From Vicinamibacteraceae bacterium (GTDB lineage Bacteria; Planctomycetota; Phycisphaerae; Phycisphaerales; UBA5793), in assembly GCA_011525805.1 (NCBI GenBank), contig WYBR01000097.1:1-53233 (forward strand): a stretch of 53,233 bases of DNA, read 5' to 3'. This document shows, in pieces, positions 19,178 through 51,936 of the stretch (position 1 is the stretch's first letter; every line of letters starts with the position of its first letter). The notes under the pieces are model-generated. The model was given only the letters and a program-made list of their open reading frames with translations, was not told where the DNA came from and ran no database searches. The translations under genes were made by a program, and so were the position numbers.

Positions 19178-19298
19178 GAATGAAACCCTCTAGACATAGT
19201 CAAGACGTTGTGCACATGTGCTGGGATCGACAGGCCGCCCGGGAACGAAAGTCTCGCAGTCCGCCGTGTCGCTGTTCATCGTACGTGACGACTTGCCC

Positions 19299-29695: not shown

Positions 29696-30198
29696 ATGCC
29701 AACGACCATCGAACGCGAGATCGACGCCCTGCAACGGATGACGACGAGCGAACTCGTCGAGCGCTACGAGGAGCTGTGCAACCAGCCCTGCCGCACGCGG
29801 CACCGCGCGTACCTCATCCGCAAGATCGCCTGGCGCATGCAGGCCAACGCCGAGGGCGACCTTTCCGAGCGTGCCCGCCGCCGCGCGGCAGAACTGGCCG
29901 ACGACGCCGAGGTGCGTGTCATGGCGCCGCGCACGCAGATCCACCCGCCCCAACCAGACGCCCCTCCCTCTGCGACGCGCGCGGTCTCGACCGCCGAGCC
30001 GCGCGACCCGCGCCTCCCGCCGCCCGGATCGGCCATCGTCCGCAAGTACAAAGGCCGCACAATTCGCGTCGTCGTTCTCGACGATGGGCAGGGCTTCGAG
30101 TGGGATGGTCAACGCTACCGCACGCTCACCGCGATCGCCAAGAAGGTCACCGGCAGCCACCTCAATGGGTTTCGCTTCTTCCAATTAGAGGCGAAACC

Positions 30199-30202
<4 letters not shown>
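29696..30202 (+). CDS. DUF2924 domain protein
   Basis: 168 aa, ATG preceded by GAAAGGAG. Residues 1-70 (REIDALQRMTTSELVERYEE, RHRAYLIRKIAWRMQA) and 115-168 (RKYKGRTIRVVVLDDGQGFE, TLTAIAKKVTGSHLNGFRFF) are the two conserved parts of DUF2924, with a variable Pro-rich linker between. DUF2924 proteins are near-obligate neighbours of certain large serine recombinases in mobile islands and prophages; a DNA-binding or directionality role is suspected but unproven. It overlaps the recombinase GTG by 4 bases. Confidence 0.88.
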
Positions 30203-31787
<1,585 letters not shown>

Positions 31788-31791
<4 letters not shown>

Positions 31792-32180
31792 CGACCGTCA
31801 CCCGAGATATTCACTTCACGGTCAAGGGCAACCGCAAGCGCGCCATCACCGGCCCGGCGCCGCAGAAGCCGGAGCCGAAGGGTCGCATCCCGCGAATCTC
31901 CAAACTGATGGCCCTGGCGATCCGCTTCGACCAACTCCTCAAGAACGGCGTCGTCGCCAACCAGTCCGAACTCGCCCGCCTCGCCCACGTCACCCAGCCG
32001 CGGATGACGCAGATCATGAACCTACGCAATCTGGCGCCGGACATTCAGGAAAAGATACTGTTTCTCCCGATCGTCGAACGGGGCCGAGACCCAATCCACG
32101 AGCGCATGATGCGCAACTTGACGCACGCCATGATGTGGCGCGAGCAGCGTCGGCGTTGGGGCGCGATTCGTGACCGCTGA
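31788..32180 (+). CDS. HTH-like protein following the recombinase
   Basis: 130 aa from ATG 31788. N-terminal TRDIHFTVKGNRKRAITG is typical of the third gene in DUF2924-recombinase modules. The middle (ALAIRFDQLLKNGVVANQSE then LARLAHVTQPRMTQIMNLRN) is a helix-turn-helix with the 'ELARLAHVTQPRMTQIM' recognition pattern. Possibly a DNA-binding partner or directionality factor for the recombinase. It could also regulate the island; no binding site is known. Confidence 0.65.
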
Positions 32181-32184
32181 CCGG

Positions 32185-32346
32185 CTATTTCTTCCTCTTG
32201 TCGTCGTACCGACCAGCGTCGCCGTGCCCCTTCTTGGGCGTGATCTCGACCGACGAGTTCGTCGGATCGGCCTTCGCCTGAGCCACTGACTTCAGACGGC
32301 CCGTGTCATCGTCGCGCCCGATCTTGAATCCCTTTGACTTCGACAT
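32185..32346 (-). CDS. Small conserved hypothetical protein
   Basis: 53 aa from ATG 32346, with GGGAG 9 bases upstream. Basic and hydrophilic (MSKSKGFKIGRDDDTGRLKS, ending KKGHGDAGRYDDKRKK). No domain recognised. It lies convergent to the recombinase module and divergent from the RecD-like helicase, so the bidirectional promoter element at 32412-32467 may also transcribe it. Confidence 0.55.
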   Translation of the reverse strand: MSKSKGFKIGRDDDTGRLKSVAQAKADPTNSSVEITPKKGHGDAGRYDDKRKK

Positions 32347-32411
32347 TGCTGGTGCTCCCGAATGGGATTGGTACATTGCGCCGGTCTAGCGGCTTGCCCG
32401 AAGCCGCCGGC

Positions 32412-32467
32412 TTGCTCTCAGGTGACCCACAGGTTATGATCGCGTTAACTGTTTGGCAAACGCGGAC
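32412..32467. promoter_or_regulatory. Bidirectional promoter/operator cassette, copy 1
   Basis: Rightward: TTGCTC (32412-32417), 17-base spacer, TATGAT (32435-32440), then palindrome GTTTGGCAAAC (32451-32461) 10 bases downstream. On the minus strand, TTGCCA within the palindrome, 17 bases, then TAACCT form a leftward promoter. The 56-bp element is 49/56 identical to 41327-41382, with the palindrome and next 6 bases invariant. It precedes the RecD-like helicase and the small gene at 32185-32346. Confidence 0.75.
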
Positions 32468-32520
32468 AGTGAGAAGATTTTGGAACGGGTCGATGCGGGG
32501 CGTCGCCCGCAGCAACAAAG

Positions 32521-35500
32521 ATGGGGAACGGTGTCATGGAGCCCCCGCTTCGGCACATCTCGATTCGCGTTCCGTGGCACGATACGGCCTGGGACGGGCG
32601 CGTGTGCGCCAAGCCTGCCCTCAACGGTGCTTGTCTTCGTTTGAAGGGCATCGGATTGGCTCGGGATGACAAGGCGGAAGACGCCGTCGCCACGATGTCG
32701 CTGAATGTTCTCCCTCGTGAGCAATGGCCCTGCTGTGTAGGGGAGCGGGCAACGTTCATGGCCCCCTTCGAACTGGTGCAATCGAAAGTTCATCCGTACA
32801 GCTGGAAAGACGATGGAAAACACGCTCACTTTGTGCCGACGCCGCTCCGGCATCCCCCATACTCCGCTCCAGCTGTGCCGTTCTCGTGGATGCTGGCCGA
32901 ATCGGCGGAGCAACTGGCAGCGGAGCACGCGCTTGACGTACTGCCTGATCGTGAACCCGACCTCGGCTTCAAGACGCAGTGGCTGCAGCACCGTGAGAAC
33001 CAAAAGGCACTGTCCGACTGTTTCTGCGCCCATATCAAGCCCAACGAGTCGTTGGTGTTCTTCTATGCCAAGCACGTTCCATTCGTCGAGGACACCGCGG
33101 GGCGACGCGTAATCATCGGCGTGGGTCGGGTGCTTCACGTCGGGCCCTGCGTCGAGTACGAGTACAACACCAAAGACCTGAAGGACAAGCTCCGGTCCAT
33201 GCTCTGGGAGCGGCTGGTGCAGCACTCGATTCGGCCCGATTTCAGGGACGGCTTCATCCTTCCCTATCACGCTGCCCTCGAGAAGGCGGCCACCGACCCT
33301 GACTTCGACCCGACCACGATCGCGGCGTTTTCGCCTGAGGACCGGCTCCTTGAGTTCTCCCATGCATCGCAACTCGTCACTCACGACGCCGCCATCGCCG
33401 GTCTCCTCGCCTGCGCCGATTCACTGCGAAAGGTGAAGACTTACCTGCCGGGCAAGTGGGACCAGTGCCTGCAGTGGATCGACGATCGCCTCGGCGAGCT
33501 GTGGAAGGCTCGTGGTCCGTGCCCAGGCCTTGGTGCTGCCCTCTCGGCCTTCGGCGTCGAGCAAGGGAACTTCCTCGCCCGCGCCATCGCCGAAAAGGCC
33601 GGGGAGAACGCCGACCCGTGGCCACTTGTCGATCGGGCGTTCGCAGATCCCAAGAAATACTTGCCGGGACCACTTGCGGAAAAGATCGGCAAGACGATGG
33701 CCGCGAAGTGGGCCAAGCTGCCGGCGGAGCGGCGCGCCATGCTGTGCCTCCTCAGCCGGTTTGAGATCTCCCTCGATCAGGCCAAGCTGCTCTACGTTCA
33801 GGAGGAGCGAGCGGAGGCGGGCATCAACAGCACGGACGCGGACATCCTGGCTAATCCATATCTGCTCTACGAGTTGACCCGCCTGAGCGACGACCCGATG
33901 AGCATGTGGACCATCGATCGCGGTGTCTTCCCGGACGAGGTTGTGCGGAACGCCCACCCGTTGCCTGAGCCTACGGCGCTCGACGCGGGCACCGATGCGC
34001 GGCGCGTTCGTGCGCTGACGGTTTCCGTACTAGAAGAGGCCGCCGCAAGCGGAAACTCGCTCCTGCCGCAGGACCAGGTCGTGCTCAGGGTCCGCGATCT
34101 CACACTTGATCCGCCGTGCCAGGTCGATGCCGACCTCATGACGGTTGCAAAGGAGGCCTTCGGCGACGCCGTGGTGGAGGTCCCGCTGGCCACTGGCGCG
34201 CCGGCCCTGCAACTCGGCAGGCTGGCGGAGATGGGAGGAGTCATCCGCACCTCCATCACCAAGCGGTCCTGTGGGAAACGGCTGGAAGTGAAGGCGGATT
34301 GGCGGAAGCTTCTCGACGCACACTTGGCAACCAAAGGAGCGGGGAAGCCTGATGAACTCGAAGAACGGGCGCGGGTTGAGAAGACCGCGGCGCTCAAGGA
34401 GTTGGCCGAGTCTCGTGTCTCGGTGCTCATCGGCCCCGCGGGCACGGGCAAGACGACGTTGCTCTCCGTGCTGTGCGGCCACCCGGACGTTGCCTCGGGC
34501 GACATCCTGCTCTTGGCACCGACCGGCAAGGCCCGCGTGCGCATGGAGCAATCTACCAAGGAGCTTCGGCTCAAGGGTTACACGATCGCGCAGTTCCTGA
34601 GCCCGGATCGGTACGAGGGCAGCACGGGTCGCTATCGCCTCTCAGACCAGCCGCCGGACGATTGTCCGCGCACGGTGATTATCGATGAATCGTCGATGCT
34701 CACCGAAGAGATGCTGGCCGCGCTCCTTCAAGCGCTCAAGGGCGTGCATCGCCTGATCTTTATCGGCGACCCGCGCCAGTTACCGCCCATAGGCACCGGC
34801 CGCCCGTTCGTGGACATCATCAACCATCTCGCGCCCGCCGGCGTGACAGAGATGTTCCCCCGCGTCGCGCCCGGCTTTGCGGAGTTGACCATCCGCCGTC
34901 GGCAGGCCGGAGAAGAACGTGAAGACCTCCAACTCGCTGAGTGGTTCAGCGGTGCTCCTATCGCTCCCGGCGAGGACGATGTGTTTGACAAGGTGATCGC
35001 CACGGGAACGAGCAAGCACGTGCGGTTCGCGCCGTGGGAAACGGCGGAGGATCTTCGCACGGCCCTGACTGACACGCTCGTTGGCGAGTTGGCCTTGTCC
35101 GGTCCCGACGACACTGTCGGATTCGACGCTACGCTCGGCGGAGTGCCCTGGAACGACATCCGCTTCTTCAACCCCCGGCGCGACGACACGCCGACAGGTC
35201 GGGGCGCGGCCGAAGTCTCCGAAGGTTGGCAGATTCTGTCCCCCGTGCGTGCCGGCGCACATGGTGTGCCCGACCTCAACCGCCTCATTCATGAGACCTT
35301 TCGCCAGACGATGGTGAAATCGTCCTCGGAGCGCGGCCACCAGACCCCTAAACCCAAGGGGCCAGAGAAGATTGTCTACGGCGACAAGGTCATCAACCTC
35401 ATCAACACTGACCCCGCCCACCCCCGCTACCGCCATCGCAGGGTCTACCCCGCGAAGGACACGCCCTACATCGCCAATGGCGAGATTGGCATGACAGTGG

Positions 35501-36297
35501 GGTTTTTCTGGCGGGGCCGCGCCGAGAATACCAAGCGGTATCGCGAGAACCTGGAGGTGGAGTTCTCGTCACAGCCCGGTTTCAAGTACACCTACACCGA
35601 GCGCGACTTCGGAGAGGAGGGGAACCCAGTTCTGGAGCTCGCCTACGCCCTTACAGTACACAAATCGCAAGGGAGTGAGTTCGGCACCGTCATCCTCGTG
35701 CTGCCCAACCCCTGCCGACTTCTTTCGCGCGAGATGCTCTATACCGCCCTGACGCGCCAGCGGAACCGAATCATTATCCTCCACCAAGGGGACCGCGCCG
35801 GGCTGCGCAAATACTCAACCGACAACAACTCCGAGACGGCCCGGCGGCTCACCAACATCTTCGAGGCGCCGAGGCCGATCCTGATCGAAGGACGCATCTT
35901 CGAAGAGGGGCTGATCCACCGCAGCACCGCCGACATCATGGTCCGCTCTAAGTCGGAGGTGATCATCGCCGATCACCTCGAGCGGCTGCGCAAGGAGACG
36001 GGCGTCGAGTACTCCTACGAGCGCCCGCTCACGCTCGGTGGTGTCACGAAGTACCCGGACTTCACGATCGAGGACATGGAGTCCGGCATCACGGTGTACT
36101 GGGAACACTGCGGCATGCTGCACGTCCCCTCGTACCGCCTGCGTTGGGAGGAGAAGCTGGCGTGGTATCGGGCGAGTGGCATTCTCCCCCACGAGGAGGG
36201 AGGGGGCGAGAGGGGCAAGCTGGTGGTAACGCGCGATGAGCCAAATGGCAGCATCGATTCGGCGAAGATCACGAGCGTGCTGAAGAGCCTCTTCTGA
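32521..36297 (+). CDS. RecD/PIF1-like SF1 helicase with C-terminal nuclease-like domain
   Basis: 1258 aa from ATG 32521 (ATG 32536 also possible). An unrecognised N-terminal half (1-620) precedes the SF1B motor: Walker A GPAGTGKT (about 638), IIDESSMLTEEM, FIGDPRQLPPIGTG, and the UvrD_C_2 part AYALTVHKSQGSEFGTVILV with LYTALTRQRNRI (about 1040-1090). Residues about 1140-1225 (IADHLERLRKETGVEYSYER, TKYPDFTIED, YWEHCGM) match the restriction-endonuclease-like tail seen in several defence helicases. Probably an ATP-driven DNA or RNA translocase with cleavage. It shares its promoter with the UvrD-like gene at 41444. Confidence 0.8.
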   Translation: MGNGVMEPPLRHISIRVPWHDTAWDGRVCAKPALNGACLRLKGIGLARDDKAEDAVATMSLNVLPREQWPCCVGERATFMAPFELVQSKVHPYSWKDDGKHAHFVPTPLRHPPYSAPAVPFSWMLAESAEQLAAEHALDVLPDREPDLGFKTQWLQHRENQKALSDCFCAHIKPNESLVFFYAKHVPFVEDTAGRRVIIGVGRVLHVGPCVEYEYNTKDLKDKLRSMLWERLVQHSIRPDFRDGFILPYHAALEKAATDPDFDPTTIAAFSPEDRLLEFSHASQLVTHDAAIAGLLACADSLRKVKTYLPGKWDQCLQWIDDRLGELWKARGPCPGLGAALSAFGVEQGNFLARAIAEKAGENADPWPLVDRAFADPKKYLPGPLAEKIGKTMAAKWAKLPAERRAMLCLLSRFEISLDQAKLLYVQEERAEAGINSTDADILANPYLLYELTRLSDDPMSMWTIDRGVFPDEVVRNAHPLPEPTALDAGTDARRVRALTVSVLEEAAASGNSLLPQDQVVLRVRDLTLDPPCQVDADLMTVAKEAFGDAVVEVPLATGAPALQLGRLAEMGGVIRTSITKRSCGKRLEVKADWRKLLDAHLATKGAGKPDELEERARVEKTAALKELAESRVSVLIGPAGTGKTTLLSVLCGHPDVASGDILLLAPTGKARVRMEQSTKELRLKGYTIAQFLSPDRYEGSTGRYRLSDQPPDDCPRTVIIDESSMLTEEMLAALLQALKGVHRLIFIGDPRQLPPIGTGRPFVDIINHLAPAGVTEMFPRVAPGFAELTIRRRQAGEEREDLQLAEWFSGAPIAPGEDDVFDKVIATGTSKHVRFAPWETAEDLRTALTDTLVGELALSGPDDTVGFDATLGGVPWNDIRFFNPRRDDTPTGRGAAEVSEGWQILSPVRAGAHGVPDLNRLIHETFRQTMVKSSSERGHQTPKPKGPEKIVYGDKVINLINTDPAHPRYRHRRVYPAKDTPYIANGEIGMTVGFFWRGRAENTKRYRENLEVEFSSQPGFKYTYTERDFGEEGNPVLELAYALTVHKSQGSEFGTVILVLPNPCRLLSREMLYTALTRQRNRIIILHQGDRAGLRKYSTDNNSETARRLTNIFEAPRPILIEGRIFEEGLIHRSTADIMVRSKSEVIIADHLERLRKETGVEYSYERPLTLGGVTKYPDFTIEDMESGITVYWEHCGMLHVPSYRLRWEEKLAWYRASGILPHEEGGGERGKLVVTRDEPNGSIDSAKITSVLKSLF

Positions 36298-36333
36298 CCC
36301 AACCGAGCCGGTTCGTGGTGTGTGGACGGCGAT

Positions 36334-37857
36334 CTATCGCGATGCAGCCGTAATGCGCTTCATGTTCTTTTCGTACACGTCGTCGATGACTGGTGCGAGG
36401 GTCAAGTACACACCTTGCTCGTCGCGGAACGTGCGGTCCGGATCGCCTCGAAAGGACAACCAGTTGAAGCTGGACACGACACAGAAGGCTCGATCAACCA
36501 CCAGTACCTTTGCGTGCGTGTCTCCGAGCCGCACGAAGCGGAACTTGTCTTGGAACTGTGCGGCGATCTGTTCCAATTCCCGAACTACGGCACGGTTTCG
36601 AGGGCGCTGCATTTGGCGATCGGCATCGGGGTCACCGATGCCCCAGCCGATGGTCACACGACAGCCGCGGATGAGCAGGACTTGCAGGCGGCGGACCATA
36701 GATCGATCCACAACCTCCGCACTAATCCACGGTGAAATGATGAGCAGTCGCTCAGTGGCCTTCAGAAACGCTCGCTCCAGGAGGGGCGGATGATCCGGCG
36801 TGTAGATGTGCCGGACAGGAAGTTCATCCAGGCGCGCCTCAGCGCTCTCCAACTGCTGCTCAGCAGCGACAACCTCAGGCGCGGGGGCCGCCGGGGCGAG
36901 ATCATTTGATGGCGGAGCCCCTGTTCGCTCCTTGGCGGCTACAACCGCTTGCTTGGCGGCGGCTACATCCTGCTCTCGCTTGAGCACCTCGTCGGGCGCC
37001 GCGAGGGGTGGTAGATTGATCCCTAACTCCTCGACGGCAATGCGACTCGCAGCATCTGCATCCACGACCTCCTTCACGATGCCCAGTCGCACCGCCGCCT
37101 TGCTCTTGGCGAACGCTGCTGAATAGTCCTCACGAGTGCGACCGTCCTGGATCAGAACCACCTGAACATCGTCCGATCGGCCGCGACGAAACACCAGCGC
37201 GACACCTGGACGATACAGGCGCTTCGTCCGTCCCACCGATCTCACCGCGAGGACCTCGCGGATCTGTGTTCGCCCCTTCCGCAACTGTTGGGCGATTCTC
37301 TCGACGGCCGCCACCGGCACTTCCTTGGGAACCGGCGGCCGCGCGGGGCAGGCGGGTATCTCTGGTATGTCGAGATCGCGCAGGTCCTTGGGGAACAGCA
37401 GGGCTTCATTCATGACGGTGATGACCTCGCGTGACAGTCCGTCGTACTTGACGACCACGTCGAAGTCCTGAGGCATCGACAGCGTGGCCAACGAGAGCGT
37501 GCGCTTCCCCTTTTGGGTCAGAGCCAGGTATTGATGACCTTGGGTCGCGGTGGCTGCGAGGTGGACGTCTTCCGTGCGTGTGAGATCTGACAGCACACGT
37601 CGAACGGATCGGTGGCCGAGCCCGAGGAACGATGCGACGTGATCTGGGTGCCCGAGCCCTTCATCAACCGCCTTCATCGCGAACTCTTGCAGCGGCGGAA
37701 TCGGCCGCACTTCTTGCACGAGCAGTGTGAGCGGCAACTCGTAAACAGGAAGGCCGACAAGACAGGCGTTCACCAGCCTCATGCCCGGCTTGCTAAAGGC
37801 GAAGCGATCGGCGATCGATTTCACGTCGATCCCGAATGGGTGCTGCTCATCGTTCAC
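36334..37857 (-). CDS. mkoB: PLD-family nuclease, MkoB-like (type I Mokosh)
   Basis: 507 aa from GTG 37857, overlapping the kinase-helicase stop by 4 bases. The C-terminal part (about 380-505) has LLIISPWISAEVVDRSMVRR and the HxK motif T-H-A-K-V-L-V-V-D (His448) followed by VSSFNWLSFRG, the HKD half of phospholipase D/endonuclease proteins; a single motif implies dimerisation. The N-terminal part has winged-helix-like and unassigned regions. In type I Mokosh a PLD protein partners a kinase-COG1112 helicase and both are needed for anti-phage defence (established). The pairing here is direct and coupled. Confidence 0.75.
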   Translation of the reverse strand: MNDEQHPFGIDVKSIADRFAFSKPGMRLVNACLVGLPVYELPLTLLVQEVRPIPPLQEFAMKAVDEGLGHPDHVASFLGLGHRSVRRVLSDLTRTEDVHLAATATQGHQYLALTQKGKRTLSLATLSMPQDFDVVVKYDGLSREVITVMNEALLFPKDLRDLDIPEIPACPARPPVPKEVPVAAVERIAQQLRKGRTQIREVLAVRSVGRTKRLYRPGVALVFRRGRSDDVQVVLIQDGRTREDYSAAFAKSKAAVRLGIVKEVVDADAASRIAVEELGINLPPLAAPDEVLKREQDVAAAKQAVVAAKERTGAPPSNDLAPAAPAPEVVAAEQQLESAEARLDELPVRHIYTPDHPPLLERAFLKATERLLIISPWISAEVVDRSMVRRLQVLLIRGCRVTIGWGIGDPDADRQMQRPRNRAVVRELEQIAAQFQDKFRFVRLGDTHAKVLVVDRAFCVVSSFNWLSFRGDPDRTFRDEQGVYLTLAPVIDDVYEKNMKRITAASR

Positions 37858-40800
37858 GCAACACCTCCCGCCAACACGATCGCATCGGTCGGATTGCGGT
37901 CGACGTAGTCCACCACGGTCCGCATAGGTGTCGTGCCATCGAGCCTTCTACAAAAGGCTTCGTCTCCGACAATGATGAGGGAGTCCTTTCCGCGGGACAT
38001 GGCGACATTGATCCGTTCTTGATCGCCGAGGAACCCAGCTTGACCGCCTTCGTTTGATCGAACAACGCTGAAGATGCAGACGTCCGCCTCTCGCCCCTGC
38101 GCGGCATCAACGGTGTTCACTTCGACCTCCAAGGACGCCCATTCCGCGACGCGGGTTCGAATCGCCTCAACCAGCCTCGTGCGCTGCTCCAGATACCCGG
38201 TGAGGACCAGCACACGCTTGTGCACTCCGGCCGCGGCGCAGTGACGGTGTAGACGGGATAGCGCGGTTGATAGCACGGCGAGCTCCGCCGCATTCCCAAA
38301 GCTGGTTCCGGCGCGGTATTCACGCCTGTCCGCGCGGGCACCGGTGGAGACCCACGCCACTGCCTTACCGAATGCGGACAAAATCACTGGATCGAGGTCC
38401 GCCCGACTGCTCTCGAGTTCACCGCCATAAAAGCAATGACTGACAAGGTCGCCGATCGCCTTGGTCATCCGGTACTGCTTCTTCAGTTTCACGACGCACG
38501 GTGTCGGACCGTGCGCGGCGAGCCTGCCGAACAGCGTTTCCTCTATATCCTCGCGCGACAGCTGGTACTTGTCCAACAGGGCGGCCTCGTGCAGGATCTC
38601 ACCGTGGAACGGCGGGAGCTGTCGCTCATCGCCAACGAGTACGCACTTGGTGGCTCGGCTCAGTGGAATCATCACCTCGGTCGCTGTGGCCTTCGATGCC
38701 TCGTCGACGATGCAGAGATCGAACTCCAACTCGCGAAAGCCAGAAAGGCCGGCCAGGCCCACACATGTTGACGCGACCACCTGGAACTCGGCCAGAATTG
38801 TCGGCCGAAGGTCCTTTGGGTTTGCCAACCGCTGGGCCCAGTCCTCGTGTACCTTGAGCAGGCGGAATAGCTGCTTGCTGATGTCCGACGGTGGGAGCAG
38901 GGATTGGAGGCGTTCGGTGAGCTCCGCCTCGCCAAGTTCAGCAAGGCGAGCACCACGGTCGTCCATGCGGATGAGTGCTTCCTCAGCGGACTTTCGCTCG
39001 CGCCTTGCGCGCTCGAGTGCAGGCTTGATCTCCTCGATTTGCCCTACCAGTTCCTCCTCAGTGAGCTTCGCCTTGGCGTCAGCGTCGATGGGGTCACCTC
39101 CGCGGAGCGCCCGCTCCGCAGCATTCAACCGATCGGCGAGAGTGCGGGCCCGGACACGCGACGCCAGAAGCCGGCGGGCCCCGATGGCGAGTTGGGCGAC
39201 CTTCCTTTCGAGACCCCGTTCAGCGGCCCATGACTCCAAGAACTTCTCGCCCTCGGACACCACGCGCTCGATCCAAGGCTCTAGCTGTGCCTCCAGCAAC
39301 AATGAGCGGCTGAACGGCATTACTCGATCAGGATCGGCGGCAAGGCGAACGACTCGAACCTCCTTAGAGGCCTCAAGCAGCCGTTCAATCGCGTTGTCGA
39401 TGGCGATGTGGGTCTGCGAAGTCAGGAGTACTCGACTGTCCGGCTTTGTCCTCAGTTGCTGAAGCACGAGTTCTGCAATGAACGCGGTCTTACCGGCACC
39501 TGGAGGACCGTGGACCACGAGGAAGTCATCGCAGCCCAGAGCGGCGGCCACCGCTTGGCGCTTGTCCTCATCCAGATTCTTGATGAAGAAATCAGGGATC
39601 GATGCCGGCGCTGGCGCGTGCGCTGCATCTGGGCGCGTCAAGAATCGGCCGAGGTCCGATCGAAGGGAACGTCCATGCCGAATGTCCTCGAGCGCCCGGC
39701 GTTGGCGGACCAGCGGCTCCTCAGCGGCGCGAGTGTCAAATCGCACCACACCCTTGCGCGGCAAGGGAATTGACTCGGCGCCCGGCTGATAGAGCGTCAA
39801 CGATCTGCCGTCGAAGTCGTCAAGTTCCCCACGGAACGCTGAGTCATCGACCCTCCAAAGCCCTTCTGTGAGGCCCACCTCGGCGGGCGAAGTGAGCCGG
39901 AACGTGACGCGACTACCGCGGACGTCGATCCCGTCGTACTGAACCGGGCGAAGCCGATTGCGTTCGACGTCGGTCTTGGCGTTCAGAATGCTGATCCACC
40001 GTTCATACAGCCGTTTCGCCTCGATCTGTTCCTTCGAGAGTCGGCGACCGTCGAGATGGTCCGCCAGTCCCACCTCGAAGGCGTTCAGGATGTCTACTCC
40101 GTGCTCGCGCGTCGCAGGACGGCCGAACTTGAAGGCGAATGGTGCCGGCCATGCGCTTTCTCGCAACCGTTCCAGTAGGGCTGGAGGCAGTCGACGCACG
40201 GACTCAACCGCAAACTGATCCGGCATGTTTGGTCCAACGACCAGGTGAATAGCGAGTGTCGGCGTGAGGAGCTCGTACTCGTTGTCGACGTCTGTTCCAC
40301 CGAGCTGGTCGGGCAGGCGCCGGCGCTGCACTCCGCACACCTCCCTGATTTCGTCGAGGAGCAGCCCCTGCACCTGCTGAACGTCATGGAGGCCGAACAG
40401 GTCAACGCACCTCCGTGCGGCGTTCTGCGCCAGATGGAGGAAGCACACCCGTTCCTTTAGCCAGTGCTGCCGTCGATCTCGTTGAATCGTCTCCAGCTCT
40501 TCCAGCAACTGGCCCGCGTTGCGAGGCCGTTCTGCAGGATCGCGCGCAATCGCCCTCTTCAGCAGCGCATGAACCTCGGGGGCTACGTCGCACTCGTCTT
40601 CAAGGGCCCTTACCACCGCCGCGTAATCGTCCAGGGGCCGTGCAAGAAGGCACCGCACCGACAACACCGCAAACGCAAAGACATCCCGCGTCTCGGTGTA
40701 CTCGCCGTGGTCATCCTCGGGAGGCGCGTACGGGCGCGTCATGAACTGGGCGAGTGTGATGCCCGGATCCAGCAACTTCTTGAGACGTGCAATCCCGAAG

Positions 40801-41303
40801 TCAGCCAGCTTCGGCGTACCGTCAGGACCGACAAGTATGTTCTGCGGCTTGATGTCACGGTGAATGCAGCGGCGTTGGTGGGCGAAGTCCAATGCTCGAA
40901 GAACCGGGAGGCCAATGCGTTCGACGTACCCATCCCACCCCCACACCTCGGGGTCGTCACGGTTCAGACTCCCGACATGCTCGTCGAGATTGCGATCGAT
41001 CCACTCCAGCGCCAGGAAGTTCCGGTCGGTGGCTTCGTCGTGACCGAAGTCAAAGAGCTGCACAATGTTCGGGTGTTTGAGCTCCTGCAGCGCCGCCGAT
41101 TCGCGCCGAAAGCTCTCCTGAACGAAGTCCTGGCTCAATCCACCGGCGCGGAACAGTTTGAGGGCCACGTCCCGCTCGGCGACGAGGTCGCGTGCCTTGT
41201 ACACGTCGGACATTCCACCGGCTCTGACCTTGGGGGTCAGGGCGTATCGTCCTCCGATGATCCGTGGCTGCTCCAACGGCGCGCCCTCCGCGACGCGGAG
41301 CAT
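37854..41303 (-). CDS. mkoA: Ser/Thr kinase fused to COG1112-type SF1 helicase, MkoA-like (type I Mokosh)
   Basis: 1149 aa. The kinase domain (about 15-275) has RAGGMSDVYKARD, catalytic Lys49, HRD (148-150) with DIKPQN, and DFG (168-170), so it looks active. A linker and unassigned part (280-560) precede an SF1 Upf1-like helicase: Walker A GPPGAGKT (599-606), IVDEASKAT, LVGDERQLPPF, KKQYRMTKAIGDL and VNTVDAAQGREADVCIFSVV. This fusion is the MkoA architecture. It would sense or process phage RNA/DNA and pass a signal to the PLD nuclease (mechanism inferred). Translation is coupled to the PLD gene. Confidence 0.85.
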   Translation of the reverse strand: MLRVAEGAPLEQPRIIGGRYALTPKVRAGGMSDVYKARDLVAERDVALKLFRAGGLSQDFVQESFRRESAALQELKHPNIVQLFDFGHDEATDRNFLALEWIDRNLDEHVGSLNRDDPEVWGWDGYVERIGLPVLRALDFAHQRRCIHRDIKPQNILVGPDGTPKLADFGIARLKKLLDPGITLAQFMTRPYAPPEDDHGEYTETRDVFAFAVLSVRCLLARPLDDYAAVVRALEDECDVAPEVHALLKRAIARDPAERPRNAGQLLEELETIQRDRRQHWLKERVCFLHLAQNAARRCVDLFGLHDVQQVQGLLLDEIREVCGVQRRRLPDQLGGTDVDNEYELLTPTLAIHLVVGPNMPDQFAVESVRRLPPALLERLRESAWPAPFAFKFGRPATREHGVDILNAFEVGLADHLDGRRLSKEQIEAKRLYERWISILNAKTDVERNRLRPVQYDGIDVRGSRVTFRLTSPAEVGLTEGLWRVDDSAFRGELDDFDGRSLTLYQPGAESIPLPRKGVVRFDTRAAEEPLVRQRRALEDIRHGRSLRSDLGRFLTRPDAAHAPAPASIPDFFIKNLDEDKRQAVAAALGCDDFLVVHGPPGAGKTAFIAELVLQQLRTKPDSRVLLTSQTHIAIDNAIERLLEASKEVRVVRLAADPDRVMPFSRSLLLEAQLEPWIERVVSEGEKFLESWAAERGLERKVAQLAIGARRLLASRVRARTLADRLNAAERALRGGDPIDADAKAKLTEEELVGQIEEIKPALERARRERKSAEEALIRMDDRGARLAELGEAELTERLQSLLPPSDISKQLFRLLKVHEDWAQRLANPKDLRPTILAEFQVVASTCVGLAGLSGFRELEFDLCIVDEASKATATEVMIPLSRATKCVLVGDERQLPPFHGEILHEAALLDKYQLSREDIEETLFGRLAAHGPTPCVVKLKKQYRMTKAIGDLVSHCFYGGELESSRADLDPVILSAFGKAVAWVSTGARADRREYRAGTSFGNAAELAVLSTALSRLHRHCAAAGVHKRVLVLTGYLEQRTRLVEAIRTRVAEWASLEVEVNTVDAAQGREADVCIFSVVRSNEGGQAGFLGDQERINVAMSRGKDSLIIVGDEAFCRRLDGTTPMRTVVDYVDRNPTDAIVLAGGVA

Positions 41304-41326
41304 CGGCGGGCTCGGGACGGCCCGGT

Positions 41327-41382
41327 TTGCACTCCGCTGACCCGCAGGTTATCATCCCGTCAACTGTTTGGCAAACGCGGAC
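41327..41382. promoter_or_regulatory. Bidirectional promoter/operator cassette, copy 2
   Basis: Rightward TTGCAC (41327-41332), 17 bases, TATCAT (41350-41355), then GTTTGGCAAAC (41366-41376), driving the UvrD-like gene. Leftward TTGCCA-N17-TAACCT, with the -35 inside the palindrome, points at the kinase-helicase gene (start 41303). A repressor at the palindrome would cover both. It matches copy 1 with identical spacing throughout. Confidence 0.78.
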
Positions 41383-41443: not shown

Positions 41444-44206
41444 ATGAAGCTCACTCCCTCGCAAGCCAGTGCGATTGACAGCCCGATGGGCAATCTTCAA
41501 CTGATCGCGTGCGCCGGCTCCGGGAAGACCGAGGTTGTCGCCCAGCGGGTGGTTCAGTTGCTCACGCCCAAGCCCGAGGGGACGTTGTCGCCGCGGAACA
41601 TCGTCGCCTTCACCTTCACGGAGAAAGCCGCGGCGGAGCTCAAGGAGCGGATCACGACGCGCTGCCGCGCCGCCCTGGGCGACATCCCCGGCCTCGCGGA
41701 GATGTTCGTTGGGACGATCCACGCGTTCTGCCTCGAGTTGATCAAGTCGGAGGTGCCGAAATACCTCAAGTACGAAGTGCTGAACGACGTGCAGCAGGGC
41801 CTGTTCGTGGATCGGCACAGCAAGCAGAGCGGGCTGACCTCTTCCAAGGACATCGCCGGCGCGCCCTTGTCGAGGTACAAGGACACCCAGCATTACATCA
41901 ACGCGCTGGCGATCCTGCGCGAGGCGGACCTCGACGACGCTGCCCTGAATGGCTGTTCCATAGTGGATGGTTTGGGGGCCTACTGCGATCTGATCAACGA
42001 CCGGAGCTACCTGGACTACTCTGAGATCCTCACAGCCGGCGTCGAGGCGATCACCAATGAGGCCGATCTGCGGAGTCGCTTGGCAGATAGAGTGCGATAT
42101 GTGATCGTCGATGAGTATCAGGACGTGAACCCGATTCAGGAGGCGATCGTCTGGTCGCTTCACGATCTGGGCGCGAAGGTCTGCGTGGTCGGAGATGACG
42201 ACCAGACTGTCTACCAGTGGCGCGGGAGCGACGTCGAGAACATCCTGACCTTCGCCAAGCGGTATCCGGGTGTCACGCAGATCCCGCTCGAAGAGAACTT
42301 CCGCTCAAGCGACGGCGTGGTGGAGACGGCTCGCGACTTTATCAACCAGAACGCCGGCCGACTCGCGAAGGCGATGAAGCCCACCGCGGCTCAAGCCTAC
42401 GAGGTCGGCGATATCACTGCGCTGTCGTTCGCCGACCCTAACGCCGAAGGTCAGTTCATCGCGCAGGCGTGTGGGGCCTCCCGCGGCCTTGTAATACGCG
42501 ACGATGACAAAGATCGCGGCATTTCGTGGTCCGACATGGCCGTCCTTCTCCGAAGCGTGAAGAAAGACGCAGCACCGATCATGCGGGCGCTCGACACAGC
42601 CGGCATCCCATTTGTCGTCGTCGGCATGAACAACCTGTTCGGCACCGCGGAGGCAGAGGCCGCCCGACAACTCTTCTACTTCATGGCATCGCGGCCCGGC
42701 GTAGACGAGACCGTCGTGGAGGCCGCCTGGGTCAACGCCGACCTTGGACTTGATGTTCCCACGCTGCGCCAGGCGATCAAGAACGCCGCGGCGGCACGAG
42801 CTGCACTGGTCGATCCTGACCAGAAGCGCTGGGGCTTCTACTCCATCCAGCGTGTGTTCCTCAACTTCCTGGAGAGCGCCGGTGTGCGGGAAGAAGCCGT
42901 TCCAAACGGGCGGGGCGAGGTGGTGTTTTACAACATGGGGAAATTCAGCCAGCTGATCTCGGACTATGAGACGATCCACTATCACTCGAAGCCCGCCGAG
43001 AAGTACGAGTCCTTCGGCAACTTCCTGCAGTTCCGTGCGGAGGAAGCGTATCCAGAGGGATGGCAGGACAACCAGTACGCCAACCCCGATGCGGTTCGCA
43101 TCATGACCGTGCACCAGTCGAAGGGGATGCAGTGGCCGGTCGTGTTCATTCCGGCGTTACGGAAGAACCGGTTCCCTGCCCGGAAGCCCGGTGGTCGGAC
43201 TGTGTGGCATCTGCTGCCACGCGCGGGGGTTCGTGGTCAGGCTCGCTACGAAGGGACCATCGAGGACGAGCGCCGGCTGTTCTACGTCGCCATGACGCGG
43301 AGCCAGAAGTTCCTCCACATGTCGTGGGCTCCGATCCCGGGCAATCAGCAAGCACAGAGGGTGTCGGAGTTTTGGAATGACGTCCTGGTTTCGAAGTGGG
43401 TCAAGCGCCGTCCCCCTGACTACACGACGCGGACGAGGCTGACGCCGGCCGCGCGGACTGGCGTCGCGAATGTCGTGTTCTCGTTCTCCAACCTGAAGTA
43501 CTTCTTCGAGTGCCCGTACCAGTTCAAGCTCCGCGTTCTGTACGGATTCAACGCCCCAATCCACGAAGGGCTCGGGTACGGCAAGTCCCTGCATGACGCC
43601 CTGGCAGAGGTACATGCCAAGGCCATCCAAGGCGAGGTGTACGGTGCCGGCGAGGCGGCGCGCCTCATACAGACCCACATGCATACTCCGTACGCCTATC
43701 CGGCGCTGAAGCAAAAGCTCGCGGGAGCCGCCGAGCGCGTGGTGCGGGACTACCTCAATGACAACCAGACGGACTTCAAGAATCTGGAGTTCTCGGAGAA
43801 GCTGATCGAGATCAACCTCGGGCACGGGGTCAGCGTCATGGGCCGCATCGACCTGGTCCGCCGGCGCGACACAAACCAGACCACGATTGTGGATCTGAAG
43901 TCCAACGACCGCGCCCAGCCCGAGGATGTCACCGAGACCCAGTTGCACATCTATGCGCTCGGCTACCAGCATCTCACCGGCAGACGGCCCGACTATGTGG
44001 AAATATACGCGCTTGACGAGAGAAAGAAGAAGCCTAGGTCCGTGGATGACGAATTCCTAAGAGATGTGAAACTCGATGTTCTGAGCGCGGCAGACGCGCT
44101 TCGGAGGGGCGTACTCCCGGCTGCACCCGTCGCCACCAAATGCGCCAAATGCGACTATCTGGGTATGTGCACCGCCGGATCGGCTGTCGCTGCAAAGGCT
44201 AAGTGA
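41444..44206 (+). CDS. UvrD-like SF1A helicase with C-terminal PD-(D/E)XK/Fe-S nuclease (AddB/Cas4-like)
   Basis: 920 aa from ATG 41444 (MKLTPSQASAIDSPMGNLQL), preferred to an in-frame 41264 start that would run across the promoter cassette. Motor motifs: ACAGSGKTEVV (about 23-33), IVDEYQDVNPIQE, VGDDDQTVYQWRG, VHQSKGMQWPVVF and YVAMTRSQKFL. The C-terminal nuclease has GRIDLVRR ... IVDLKSND, and four cysteines, one in FFECPYQFK and three in CAKCDYLGMC, matching the iron-sulphur pattern of AddB and Cas4. Likely an exonuclease-helicase acting on DNA ends. Co-regulated with the RecD-like gene. Confidence 0.88.
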   Translation: MKLTPSQASAIDSPMGNLQLIACAGSGKTEVVAQRVVQLLTPKPEGTLSPRNIVAFTFTEKAAAELKERITTRCRAALGDIPGLAEMFVGTIHAFCLELIKSEVPKYLKYEVLNDVQQGLFVDRHSKQSGLTSSKDIAGAPLSRYKDTQHYINALAILREADLDDAALNGCSIVDGLGAYCDLINDRSYLDYSEILTAGVEAITNEADLRSRLADRVRYVIVDEYQDVNPIQEAIVWSLHDLGAKVCVVGDDDQTVYQWRGSDVENILTFAKRYPGVTQIPLEENFRSSDGVVETARDFINQNAGRLAKAMKPTAAQAYEVGDITALSFADPNAEGQFIAQACGASRGLVIRDDDKDRGISWSDMAVLLRSVKKDAAPIMRALDTAGIPFVVVGMNNLFGTAEAEAARQLFYFMASRPGVDETVVEAAWVNADLGLDVPTLRQAIKNAAAARAALVDPDQKRWGFYSIQRVFLNFLESAGVREEAVPNGRGEVVFYNMGKFSQLISDYETIHYHSKPAEKYESFGNFLQFRAEEAYPEGWQDNQYANPDAVRIMTVHQSKGMQWPVVFIPALRKNRFPARKPGGRTVWHLLPRAGVRGQARYEGTIEDERRLFYVAMTRSQKFLHMSWAPIPGNQQAQRVSEFWNDVLVSKWVKRRPPDYTTRTRLTPAARTGVANVVFSFSNLKYFFECPYQFKLRVLYGFNAPIHEGLGYGKSLHDALAEVHAKAIQGEVYGAGEAARLIQTHMHTPYAYPALKQKLAGAAERVVRDYLNDNQTDFKNLEFSEKLIEINLGHGVSVMGRIDLVRRRDTNQTTIVDLKSNDRAQPEDVTETQLHIYALGYQHLTGRRPDYVEIYALDERKKKPRSVDDEFLRDVKLDVLSAADALRRGVLPAAPVATKCAKCDYLGMCTAGSAVAAKAK

Positions 44207-44317
44207 TGATCGCGCTGCACGAATTCTCACTGGCGGGCTCTCCCGTATCGCAACACCCGCCGCTGTTTCTCGGGGACAGCCTCATTCCCGTGCGTTTCCG
44301 CAGAATGGAGTGACCGT

Positions 44318-46453
44318 GTGAATCACTTTGGCGAAAGGATCTCGTTCATCTGGAGCGTGGCGGATCTCATCCGTGGGCCCTACAAGCCGAACCAGTACGG
44401 CAAGGTCATTCTTCCGCTCACCGTGCTTCGCCGAATGGATTGCCTCCTCAGTGCAACACGGGACAAGGTGCTGCGCAAAGCGGATGAGCTGAAGCGCAAG
44501 GGAATGTCGCCTCAAGCCATCGAGCCGATTCTCAATCGAACGGCCGCTCCAGCTGACTGGCCAAGGGACCGGCCCTTCCTCATCCACAACACTTCGAAGT
44601 TCGACTTCAGCCGGCTCAAGGACGATCCGAACCACATCGCCCGAAACCTCACGCACTTCATCAAGGGCTTCTCCTCCAAGGCCCGCGAGATCTTCGAGCA
44701 CTTCGGCTTCGCTGAGCAGATCGAAAAGCTCGACAAGACCAATCGCCTCTATCTGGTTGTTTCCCGGTTCGCAGACATCGATCTCCATCCCGCATCGGTC
44801 CCGAACACGGAGATGGGCTACATCTTCGAAGAACTCATCCGGAAGTTCAGCGAGGCAGCGAACGAGACCGCCGGCGATCACTTTACGCCGCGCGAGGTCA
44901 TTCGCCTGATGGTGAACATCCTCTTCGACCCCGACGATGAAATCCTCCGGCGCCGCGGGATCGTCCGCACCATGCTGGACCCGGCCTGCGGAACGGGCGG
45001 CATGCTCTCCGTTGCCGAAGAGTACGTCGCTGAACTCAACCCGGATGCGAAGCTCGAAGTCTTCGGCCAGGACTACAACGACGAGTCCTACGCCATTTGC
45101 GGCTCGGACATGCTCATCAAAGGCCAGAACATTGAGCACATCGTCTTCGGCAACTCGTTTACAGAAGACGGCTTTCCCGGCGAGTCTTTCGACTACATGC
45201 TGGCCAATCCACCGTTCGGCGTCGAGTGGAAGCCGGAGGAAGATTTCGTCCGCCAGGAGCACGATCGCAAGGGTGGCCGGTTTGACGCTGGGTTGCCCCG
45301 CATCAACGACGGCTCCCTGCTGTTCCTCCAGCACATGATCTCGAAGATGAAGCCCATCGACCCGAAGAAGTCCAACGGCGGCAGCCGCATCGGGATCGTT
45401 TTCAATGGCTCGCCCCTCTTCACCGGCGACGCTGGCTCCGGCGAGTCGAACATCCGGCGCTGGATTATCGAGAATGACTGGCTCGAGGCGATCATCGCGC
45501 TGCCCGATCAACTCTTCTACAACACCGGCATCTACACGTACATCTGGATTGTCACGAACCGCAAGACCCCGCAGCGGCGCGGAAAAGTGCAACTCATCAA
45601 CGCCGTGCACTTCTACCGCAAGATGCGAAAGAGCCTCGGCAACAAGCGGAACGAGATCGGCGACGGCAAAGACGGGCGACCGGACCACATTGGTGAACTG
45701 ACCCGCATCTACGGGGCATTCAAGCACAACGACGCGCGCGAACTGGACGTCGACGGTGAGCGCCAGCGGGTCACCGTCAGCAAGATCTTCGACAACGAGG
45801 ACTTTGGCTTCCGCAAGGTCACGATCGAACGGCCACTTCGGCTGAAGTTTCAGGCCCTCCCGGAGCGGATCGATTCCCTGCGCGAGGCGACGCCGTTCCA
45901 GAACCTGGCCAAATCGAAGAAGAAGCCGGGCAGCAAGGCGGCCCAGCAGGAAGAAGAAGCGGGTCGGCAACAGCAGGAAGCGATCCTTGATCTGCTGCGA
46001 TCATTCGATTCAGCAAAAGTCTGGATGAGCCGGGATCGGTTCCTCGCCGACCTGGACGTTGCCGCCGAGGGGTCGGGAGTGAAGCTCCCGGCACCGATCA
46101 AAAAAGCGATCGTCGCTGCGCTTGGCGAGCGCGACGAGTGCGCCGAGATCTGCCGCGACAAAGACGGCAACGTCGAGCCCGACCCTGAGTTGCGCGACTA
46201 CGAGAATGTACCGCTCAAGCAGGATGTGTACGAGTACTTCGAACGGGAAGTGAAGCCGCACGTTCTTGATGCGTGGATTGACGAGGGTGTCGTTGACGAG
46301 CGGGACGGGAAGGTCGGGAAGGTCGGCTACGAGATCCCCCTCAACCGGCACTTCTACGTCTACAAGCCACCTCGGCCGTTGGGCGAGATTGAGGGAGACA
46401 TTGCGTCGCTTGAGAAGGACATCGTTCGCATGCTCGCGGAGGTGACGCGGTGA
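44318..46453 (+). CDS. hsdM: Type I restriction-modification methyltransferase, HsdM
   Basis: 711 aa from GTG 44318. HsdM_N-like start (FIWSVADLIRGPYKPNQYGK), then the N6-DNA methylase domain with DPACGTGGML (221-230) for SAM binding and NPPF (297-300) as catalytic motif. It methylates adenine in the recognition sequence set by HsdS to protect host DNA. The C-terminal 150 residues carry charged helices. Length is somewhat above a minimal HsdM. No promoter found in the 110-base gap from the UvrD-like gene; co-transcription is possible. Confidence 0.95.
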   Translation: MNHFGERISFIWSVADLIRGPYKPNQYGKVILPLTVLRRMDCLLSATRDKVLRKADELKRKGMSPQAIEPILNRTAAPADWPRDRPFLIHNTSKFDFSRLKDDPNHIARNLTHFIKGFSSKAREIFEHFGFAEQIEKLDKTNRLYLVVSRFADIDLHPASVPNTEMGYIFEELIRKFSEAANETAGDHFTPREVIRLMVNILFDPDDEILRRRGIVRTMLDPACGTGGMLSVAEEYVAELNPDAKLEVFGQDYNDESYAICGSDMLIKGQNIEHIVFGNSFTEDGFPGESFDYMLANPPFGVEWKPEEDFVRQEHDRKGGRFDAGLPRINDGSLLFLQHMISKMKPIDPKKSNGGSRIGIVFNGSPLFTGDAGSGESNIRRWIIENDWLEAIIALPDQLFYNTGIYTYIWIVTNRKTPQRRGKVQLINAVHFYRKMRKSLGNKRNEIGDGKDGRPDHIGELTRIYGAFKHNDARELDVDGERQRVTVSKIFDNEDFGFRKVTIERPLRLKFQALPERIDSLREATPFQNLAKSKKKPGSKAAQQEEEAGRQQQEAILDLLRSFDSAKVWMSRDRFLADLDVAAEGSGVKLPAPIKKAIVAALGERDECAEICRDKDGNVEPDPELRDYENVPLKQDVYEYFEREVKPHVLDAWIDEGVVDERDGKVGKVGYEIPLNRHFYVYKPPRPLGEIEGDIASLEKDIVRMLAEVTR

Positions 46454-47661
46454 TACCTATTGCCATCGATGACATCACTGCGGACCACATCCGGGCACTC
46501 ATTACCAACGGAGTACGCGAGGGCCGCACGATTGAGTACAAGCAATCGCTGCCGCGCCGAAATGACAAGGAGACGAAAGAGTTCCTGGCGGATGTCTCCT
46601 CCTTCGCCAATGCGAGTGGCGGGGATCTCGTGTACGGAATCGCCGCGGCGAACGGTGTCCCGATGAGTGCCGTCGGTCTCCAAGCAGCAAATCTGGATCA
46701 GGAGATGCTTCGTCTTGACGGCATCATCCGAAATGCCATCGCGCCGCGCATCCTCGGATTTCGAATGCGGCCGATCGCGGGACTGGATAACGGCCCGGTG
46801 TTGCTGCTGCGAGTTCCGCGCAGCTGGGCCGGGCCGCACATGGTCACATTTGGCGGGTCTTCACGATTCTCCACGCGGAGCAGTGCGGGCAAGTTTCCGA
46901 TGGACGTCGATGAGCTGCGGTCAGCGTTCGCACTTGCAGGTGATCTTCCGCAGCGCATAAGGATGTGGCGAGATGAGCGATTGAGTCGGATACTTGCAAA
47001 CGAGACACCGATTCCATTGCACGATCCGTCGCTTCTGGTTTTGCATCTGGTTCCAGTTCAGTCGATGCATTCGGCTCCCACGCTGGCTGTCATCGACCTT
47101 GTATCGAAGTCGGGCCAACTCGGCCCGATTGGCGTGGGCGGAGGGAACAGACGCATCAACCTGGATGGGCTGGCGATGTGCACCGAGAGTCATGATCGCC
47201 GCCTGCGGTTTGCCGGCTACGCCCAAACCTTCAGGTCGGGCTGCATCGAATCAGTATTCAGTGGACTCGCCCAAAGCGAAGAGAAGGGTCGCCCGCCATC
47301 CATACCCATTCAGGAATGCGAGAAGTGGACTCTCGAGGCTGTCGCGCGCTATGTCCGAACCCTCAACGAACTCTCGATCGGCTTCCCGATGGTCGTCATG
47401 CTCTCAATGATGGGAGTCAAAGGCGCCGTATTCGCGATTGGGCGGGGTATAGACGCGCATGCACAGCCGATCGATCGCGACCCGCTCTTGCTGCCGGAGA
47501 TCGTCATTGAAGAAGCGCCAAGAGACCTTCCCCGACTGATGCGTCCAATGTTCGACGCTGCCTGGAATGCGGGAGGACTCTATCACTCGTTCAACTACGA
47601 CGGAAAGGACAATTGGAAGGCCGGTTCGCTCTCGGGAGTCCCGATGGAGGTGGTCAAGTGA
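46450..47661 (+). CDS. AlbA_2/Schlafen-type domain protein inside the RM operon
   Basis: 403 aa from GTG 46450 overlapping hsdM's stop. Residues about 10-75 (EGRTIEYKQSLPRRNDKETK, EFLADVSSFANASGGDLVYG) are the AlbA_2 domain of Schlafen-like and HATPase-associated regulators, with the E.KQS and FANASGG blocks intact. The remainder (to 403) has no GHKL ATPase motif and is unassigned; AlbA_2 domains act in nucleic acid binding or tRNA/RNA cleavage in some families. It sits between hsdM and hsdS with coupled start/stop codons, so it is integrated into the operon. Confidence 0.78.
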   Translation: MIPIAIDDITADHIRALITNGVREGRTIEYKQSLPRRNDKETKEFLADVSSFANASGGDLVYGIAAANGVPMSAVGLQAANLDQEMLRLDGIIRNAIAPRILGFRMRPIAGLDNGPVLLLRVPRSWAGPHMVTFGGSSRFSTRSSAGKFPMDVDELRSAFALAGDLPQRIRMWRDERLSRILANETPIPLHDPSLLVLHLVPVQSMHSAPTLAVIDLVSKSGQLGPIGVGGGNRRINLDGLAMCTESHDRRLRFAGYAQTFRSGCIESVFSGLAQSEEKGRPPSIPIQECEKWTLEAVARYVRTLNELSIGFPMVVMLSMMGVKGAVFAIGRGIDAHAQPIDRDPLLLPEIVIEEAPRDLPRLMRPMFDAAWNAGGLYHSFNYDGKDNWKAGSLSGVPMEVVK

Positions 47662-51184: not shown

Positions 51185-51855
51185 ACGCAAAGCAAACTGC
51201 TGCAGTCATCGCCAATACGTGCCGAGACCTCTTCTCAATGGGGATCGTGTCATTTCACAATCATCCGCGCCTTATCGCCGGAAGTGGTCGGGATCTAGTT
51301 TCGTGGCCCACGCGCGGAACAAGTGACGCAAGCATGCACGAGTTCGGAACACTAGATCAGTATCTCGCATGGGTCCGGGATGGAGCCTTTACCTGCCTGC
51401 TGAGTGATTTCTCGCTCATCCGCGCTTCGTATGAGTGCATGGGGAGCGCAACCATCGGGCACAGTCTTCTCTACTGGCCTTGCCCGATCGACTTTCGGGA
51501 AGGTTTGGAGGACTTGGATGAGTTGTGTGACGGCATCGCGATGTGCATTGAGTCCGTGCACCGATCGCGCGAGATCTGCAGTCTGACCATGCGAGCGCCA
51601 ATGCGGTTCGATTTCGATCCATCGAGGGAGAGTGACGATCATCCGCTCGTTCATCTGCACACTCAATTCGAAGACGCACGGATCAGTGTGCAACAGGCCA
51701 TGTGCTTTCCCGGATTCATGAAGCGGGTACTTCGGACCTTTTATCGTAACCGTTGGCAATTGTCAGAAATCGACAGCATCCATGAACCGGGTCTTCGGCA
51801 TCAGGACGGCCAATGCGAACCACCGACTAGGTGCTTTCAGATCACTTGGAGTTGA
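51181..51855 (+). CDS. DUF2290 protein, partner of the helicase
   Basis: 224 aa from GTG 51181, overlapping the helicase stop. Segments DFSLIRASYECMG, SLLYWPCPIDF, MRFDFDPSRESDDHPLVHLH and FPGFMKRVLRTFYRNRW are the conserved blocks of DUF2290, a family named in defence pairs. The function of the family is not known; no classic catalytic motif is visible. Tight coupling to the helicase supports a two-component system. It is followed after about 80 bases by hsdR. Confidence 0.8.
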   Translation: MNAKQTAAVIANTCRDLFSMGIVSFHNHPRLIAGSGRDLVSWPTRGTSDASMHEFGTLDQYLAWVRDGAFTCLLSDFSLIRASYECMGSATIGHSLLYWPCPIDFREGLEDLDELCDGIAMCIESVHRSREICSLTMRAPMRFDFDPSRESDDHPLVHLHTQFEDARISVQQAMCFPGFMKRVLRTFYRNRWQLSEIDSIHEPGLRHQDGQCEPPTRCFQITWS

Positions 51856-51936
51856 AGGGAAGGGAAGTGTCCGACTTGGAATGCCTGCACGACGTATATT
51901 GCGCCGCGAAGTCGCACGACTTACAGGAGATCGCGC

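Follow-up and report, generated by a model that had tools for sequence, protein, structure and literature searches.

A repeated promoter–operator element in a recombinase-carried defence island and its probable control by a CapH/CapP-like repressor and protease

In the CapH/CapP system, an XRE repressor and an M78 protease activated by single-stranded DNA (ssDNA) control the cyclic-oligonucleotide-based antiphage signaling system (CBASS) and other immune operons, according to Lau et al. 2022 as cited in PMC13373217 and PMC12255303; the ssDNA-activated CapP cleaves CapH (PMC13373217, PMC10904395). The RDRM motif of another XRE repressor, DdrO, has been reported from Deinococcus alone (PMC10904395). 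CapH/CapP pairs are already known to control an adjacent operon. Joint control of stacked defence systems in one island is largely open. Here we analyzed contig WYBR01000097.1 of a Phycisphaerae genome (assembly GCA_011525805.1, deposited as Vicinamibacteraceae bacterium), a stretch of 53,233 nt referred to below as the window, in which a defence island begins at ~29.8 kb. The island contains two copies, E1 and E2, of a promoter-like element, one ahead of a RecD-like helicase gene (PADLOC candidate PDC-S68) and the other between the Mokosh gene mkoA and a UvrD helicase gene that is followed by type I restriction-modification (R-M) genes. In our view, E1 and E2 probably represent a single regulated promoter in duplicate, kept under a CapH-like XRE protein of the island and released by a CapP-like protease. 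The locus offers a concrete case in which a predicted repressor, a protease, an operator sequence and target promoters can be named across many genomes, with Mokosh, PDC-S68 and type I R-M placed on one switch.

The repeated element and its conservation

The original prediction, made from the letters of the window alone, described two 56-bp elements (32412-32467 and 41327-41382, both on the + strand) that share 49 of 56 positions and the palindrome GTTTGGCAAAC. Realignment confirmed this count and showed the repeat to be longer, with 53 of 61 positions identical (32407-32467 versus 41322-41382; Table 1); at the base composition of the window, ~1e-11 pairs of 56-mers this alike would be expected by chance. 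The palindrome is exact in both copies (32451-32461 and 41366-41376), and so are the spacings proposed earlier, with 10 bp from the -10-like hexamer to the palindrome and 17 bp from the -35-like to the -10-like hexamer. In their letters, both copies read as a sigma-70-like promoter whose -10 is closely followed by a dyad operator, over the predicted transcription start. A third exact copy of GTTTGGCAAAC does not occur within the window, and AACTGTTTGGCAAAC was found nowhere beyond E1 and E2 in the 4.54-Mb genome. Copy 2 lies between divergent genes, as had been described; the same is true of copy 1, where the earlier reader missed the minus-strand open reading frame (ORF) at 32185-32346 that diverges from the RecD-like gene.

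Both copies are conserved in an orthologous island of Phycisphaerae bacterium HBSAPP03 (L032), located by a protein search with the RecD-like gene. This island has the order LSR-HTH-RecD-MkoB-MkoA-UvrD as in the window, where LSR is a large serine recombinase and HTH its small helix-turn-helix partner, and its proteins are 85-91% identical to those of the window for the cargo and 62-69% for the LSR and HTH. E1 and E2 stand at the same two places with intact palindromes, and in 20-bp blocks the two islands agree at 17-20 of 20 positions over the promoter and operator versus 3-14 of 20 in most flanking blocks. Absence of the palindrome from orthologous loci had been named as evidence that would speak against shared control; in L032, both are there. 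E1 is likewise present in L047. The overall identities of orthologous copies do not group them by position.

The full-length element, searched for exactly and near-exactly in IMG/VR, in plasmids and in 294 genomes of the phylum, had no match outside this genome; its relatives were reached through protein searches together with a model built from the sequences of six copies alone and a second alignment. Related elements were found in about a dozen islands of the LSR-HTH family in Phycisphaerae, ahead of different defence genes (Table 1), with UvrD genes also among the cargo preceded by the element family. Where the upstream sequence of an element locus is intact, the LSR-HTH module nearly always precedes the element, and the significant matches (E < 1e-4) among 80 fetched LSR-HTH loci all lie on the coding strand directly behind the HTH gene. 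The promoter core, TTG-N8-TGACCC..GGTTATNAT, is stable, while the dyad varies around GTTY-NNN-RAAC. In this genome the core occurs at one further site, on contig C1 ahead of a paralogue of the RecD-like gene, with a variant operator. Weak model matches in L150 and L155-L161, with no LSR, HTH or XRE gene nearby, were treated as chance.

The XRE and M78 protease pair and its operators

When the ORFs of the element-bearing islands were compared, one pair proved common to them besides the LSR and HTH, namely an XRE protein and an M78 protease. The 12 element genomes yielded 12 matches to the XRE protein. Of these, 11 share a contig with an element and lie 5-17 kb downstream of it, and the match in G325 is on a different contig; for the islands that a contig end truncates close to the element (the window, G629 and G538), the search gave no match. 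Each element-bearing island with an assembled downstream end has one XRE and M78 protease pair. The XRE family is present in 10 of the 12 element genomes versus 25 of 397 genomes of the class (hypergeometric 8e-12), and the XRE and protease genes are adjacent in nearly all islands examined. In the island of L032, the two proteins match Pfam HTH_3 (2.4e-12) and Peptidase_M78 (1.1e-10); the XRE gene of HBSAPP03 is at L337:5949-6311 on the minus strand. The XRE protein matches PADLOC capH (5.5e-10) and the PDB structures of an immunity repressor (8bny, 4e-9), CapH (7t5u, 1.1e-6) and DdrO (4e-4), while the protease matches PADLOC capP (2.7e-16 and 8.2e-22) and has CapP (7t5t, 4.5e-8) as its sole PDB match. 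All 30 proteases checked contain HExxH, and nearly all contain the glutamate motif ExQAxxxAxxLLMP. Similarity of the pair to CapH/CapP is moderate, at the level of the family. Behind the protease gene, most islands encode a conserved protein of ~390 amino acids, G3 (MAKPFDPRKILKQIANPLLREFF...; e.g., L018:10580-11836 and L337:3998-5176), for which Pfam, PADLOC and NCBIfam gave no match.

The window lacks the pair because its contig ends inside hsdR, at 53233. A same-genus island, L316, aligns with the window over the R-M stretch, with HsdM and Schlafen 81% and 78% identical and HsdM-Schlafen-HsdS matching, and then continues through hsdR to the XRE gene, the protease gene and G3. We infer that a CapH-like XRE and CapP-like protease pair lies just beyond the end of the window contig, after hsdR. 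In L316, compared here with 41444-51855 of the window, the hsdM gene has a variant element of its own (~1850-1900); in the window, hsdM instead stands behind UvrD and E2.

In most islands, a dyad like that of the elements also occupies the spacer between the protease gene and G3, which provided a test of the operators that is independent of E1 and E2. A matrix was made from five post-protease sites only, all taken from other islands, so that neither E1 nor E2 contributed to it; among the 106,422 positions of the window on both strands, it ranked E2 first and E1 second. Leave-one-out matrices from the other operator class were applied to 10 islands. With each island's own post-protease site set aside, the top-ranked site in 8 of them was the one before the cargo; the test failed in G661, and a weaker, overlapping match was all that G111 yielded. 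When the matrix of that other class (Q/L-type) was run on the window, E1 and E2 came joint second, behind an isolated match at 19271. This match (19271-19288, 17.1 bits) lies outside the island between minus-strand ORFs of unknown function and is perhaps due to chance. XRE proteins with the segment SPTYLSHVEQ are paired with operators having CAAAC right arms in 7 of 7 cases.

In the mechanism that we propose, the CapH-like XRE protein, encoded near the far end of the island, would bind the operators in the resting state and keep the RecD-like operon and the UvrD operon low; the latter probably includes the R-M genes at 44318-53233, which would be read from E2, and Mokosh may be included via a leftward start. 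Once activated, possibly by ssDNA as in known relatives, the CapP/IrrE-like M78 metalloprotease would cleave the XRE protein, and all operators of the island would be released together. DNA binding by the XRE protein, repression, cleavage and the trigger are steps that we infer. We also lean, by a small margin, toward a broader view in which islands of this family use a standard regulated promoter as a plug-in socket, so that captured defence operons sit behind the island's operator and form one co-induced regulon. Mokosh, PDC-S68, type I R-M and the SNF2 helicase would then be released by a single protease event, with the LSR-HTH module at one end of the island and the CapH/CapP-like pair with G3 toward the other.

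Several observations weigh against control by such a pair. The pair is absent from the window itself, and this genome yielded just two pairs, both of them parts of other islands. A consensus promoter scan called a rightward promoter at E2 and nothing at E1, and the -35 hexamers are weak. Several XRE-bearing islands have no detectable element before their cargo; one of them, G635, carries Mokosh (86/83% identical) and, therefore, Mokosh is not always under this operator. The XRE proteins that change jointly with the operator form one lineage, which alone could account for the pattern, so it is no independent covariation, and G394, with SPTYISHVEQ, has the other operator type. The published CapHP layout, to our knowledge, does not place the CapH repressor at the far end of an island with several operons. 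In the G635 locus (L309, contig C4), the Mokosh genes directly adjoin the HTH gene of the same island family.

Alternative explanations for the repeat

That one repressor controls both promoters, as was originally proposed, is well supported, with sites from other islands predicting both copies and L032 keeping them; the candidate would be the missing CapH-like protein, and the HTH protein encoded at 31788-32180, also put forward in the original prediction, is disfavoured in this role. The HTH gene is co-encoded with the recombinase and sits just upstream of E1; where the upstream sequence of an element-bearing island is intact, the gene is nearly always there. Its recognition segment HVTQPRMTQ, however, hardly varies among LSR-HTH modules, whether or not they have the element. 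In L200, an HTH protein 79% identical to that of the window occurs with no element, and at C1 one that is 75% identical goes with a different operator, so operator type does not track HTH similarity. By a hand count over the fetched LSR-HTH loci of clear status, the element is present in 5 of 15 XRE-bearing versus 0 of 61 XRE-less loci (one-sided P about 1.6e-4), and the operator is also seen well away from the HTH gene, downstream of the protease gene. The HTH protein has no match in Pfam, PADLOC or NCBIfam, and a comparison with solved structures gave no family assignment, with ParB matched only at E = 0.6. We regard it as unlikely that this protein binds the two palindromes as their repressor. 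A role of E1 and E2 as LexA boxes, which would place the island in the host SOS regulon, is barely credible: defence genes and a UvrD-like helicase are close by, and we take the motif to resemble the TGTTC-type LexA boxes of related phyla, yet the single lexA of the genome (C102) has no GTTYNNNRAAC upstream, and TGTTYNNNRAACA in the genome is limited to three terminator-like hairpins and one further, apparently coding site. LexA was rejected on these grounds, the missing box at lexA and the nature of the other motif copies. Terminator-like hairpins of the form AAGCCCATGTTC-NNN-GAACATGGGCTT are near-identical at L165:1495, L166:1 and L167:1495 (contigs C12, C49 and C95) and may represent a dispersed repeat terminator.

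Each copy had also been credited with a leftward promoter, and TTGCCA-N17-TAACCT strings are indeed present in both, overlapping the operator and the rightward -10. Since the leftward -35 is the operator read backwards and the leftward -10 overlaps the rightward one, finding them adds no independent evidence for a promoter. The strings are kept in E1 and E2 of the window and of L032, in L047 and in L147, all between divergent genes, and C1 has neither a divergent gene nor the leftward motif, as would suit a truly bidirectional element that mainly serves divergent transcription and keeps its palindrome as a leftward -35. However, the leftward -35 exists only in GTTTGGCAAAC-type operators and is absent from L151-L154, where the divergent small ORF is kept; the motif is inseparable from the operator and the rightward -10, and the palindrome is found behind the protease gene too, a place from which no divergent gene is read. 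This makes a mainly bidirectional purpose very unlikely, although it can be partly true alongside control by the XRE protein, and a leftward start for mkoA is plausible because the 140-bp gap upstream of mkoA holds little else. The position of direct repeats close to a large serine recombinase, and of tRNA-Met genes near the islands of L032, L047 and C1, might instead suggest attL/attR-like attachment or recombination sites with no regulatory role. We find this highly improbable, as such sites should lie at the two ends with one pair per island, whereas we find one to three internal sites at promoters: E2 and the post-protease sites are internal to the island between cargo genes, the elements always face a defence gene at promoter distance, many islands have a single copy, and the operator sequence shifts with the island lineage while the promoter core stays constant. 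tRNA-Met genes match the element core with two mismatches, and the -10 region resembles the anticodon arm of tRNA-Met read as its reverse complement. This likeness was considered as a sign of an attachment site and dropped, since a scan of 11 model-hit loci found a tRNA gene in none. No tRNA gene was found in the window. tRNA-Met genes at L032:6400-6475, L047:6451-6526 and L017:10274-10349 lie 0.7-5.7 kb upstream of the recombinase, which suggests that the island family enters near tRNA-Met. As for a recent passive duplication at the insertion of Mokosh, with a palindrome of no regulatory role, the same sequence does flank RecD-Mokosh on both sides; L032, however, keeps both copies and palindromes though the flanks diverge, and the same operator turned up independently elsewhere, following the protease gene in other islands and preceding other cargo. 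Such a duplication is largely refuted and, in our judgment, extremely improbable.

The island and its relation to known systems

The original prediction spoke of four defence genes, an undercount for a locus that holds MkoA and MkoB, PDC-S68, UvrD-PDDEXK, HsdM, Schlafen, HsdS, a helicase, DUF2290 and a partial HsdR (Table 1). The MkoA kinase-helicase adjoins the MkoB PLD protein with a 4-bp gene overlap, the arrangement of Mokosh type I. In another island of the same genome (L017/L018), the LSR and HTH share 87% and 75% identity with those of the window, whose cargo is nonetheless nearest to L032 (85-91%); the different nearest islands point to recombination between the recombinase module and the cargo.

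Table 1 Features of the island in the window and cargo behind related elements
Feature	Position or locus	Strand	Basis or remark
Large serine recombinase (LSR), island start	29776..31791	+	Pfam Resolvase, Recombinase, Zn_ribbon_recom
Small HTH partner of LSR	31788..32180	+	LSR-HTH recurs ahead of element
Small lysine-rich ORF (MSKSKGFKIGRD..., 53 codons), divergent from E1	32185..32346	-	Homologues in L032, L047, L147, L151-L154
E1, predicted promoter and operator ahead of RecD-like gene	32407..32467	+	Repeat; conserved ahead of orthologue in L032, L047
E1 hexamers	-35-like TTGCTC 32412-32417; -10-like TATGAT 32435-32440	+	
E1 putative operator GTTAACTGTTTGGCAAACGCGGAC	32444..32467	+	Palindrome ~+4 to +14 of predicted transcript
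RecD-like helicase, PADLOC candidate PDC-S68, behind E1	32536..36297	+	Earlier in-frame ATG at 32521
MkoB-like PLD protein (Mokosh)	36334..37857	-	PADLOC MkoB 4.2e-65
MkoA-like kinase-helicase (Mokosh type I), divergent from E2	37854..41303	-	PADLOC MkoA 1.6e-209
E2, predicted promoter and operator between mkoA and UvrD-PDDEXK gene	41322..41382	+	Repeat; same place in L032
E2 hexamers	-35-like TTGCAC 41327-41332; -10-like TATCAT 41350-41355	+	
E2 putative operator GTCAACTGTTTGGCAAACGCGGAC	41359..41382	+	Palindrome 41366-41376
UvrD helicase with PD-(D/E)XK nuclease domain, first behind E2	41444..44206	+	Domain search
Type I R-M genes: HsdM, Schlafen, HsdS, helicase, DUF2290, partial HsdR	44318..53233	+	
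Element before SNF2-like helicase	L147		
Element before HsdR	L149, L148, L205		
Element before HsdM	L151-L154, L213, L215		
Element before RecD	C1, L046		

In the open-licence papers searched, we found no report of shared control of Mokosh, PDC-S68 and type I R-M, nor of a CapH/CapP pair governing several promoters in recombinase-carried islands with interchangeable cargo. The arrangement suggests that, in some islands, the control system may belong to the mobile element itself and not depend on the cargo. The known systems Mokosh type I, PDC-S68 and type I R-M enter the comparison as cargo only, with window proteins matching the MkoA, MkoB, PDC-S68 and MTase_I models strongly. As for the control, the islands share with CapH/CapP, the closest known system and the best PADLOC match of the pair, the adjacent XRE and IrrE-like protease genes in defence loci, the HExxH motif and a dyad at immune promoters. 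Here, however, the gene pair is found toward the distal end of an island that has several operons and is carried by a recombinase, and two or three operators per island stand at cargo of unrelated kinds, namely Mokosh, PDC-S68 and type I R-M. The combination of an XRE protein with an M78/IrrE-type protease is also that of DdrO/IrrE (PprI) of Deinococcus and of ImmR/ImmA of ICEBs1-type elements, the latter on a mobile element as here; the XRE match to DdrO is, however, weak (4e-4), and unlike in both systems the operators here lie at defence cargo, not at repair or transfer genes. With RptR (PMC12255303), the locus has in common one small predicted repressor, repeated operator sites and a defence island around type I R-M. 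RptR binds TAGCTA direct repeats within one promoter (PMC12255303), whereas the island has dyads of different sequence at separate promoters and, in contrast to RptR, its predicted repressor has a partner protease.

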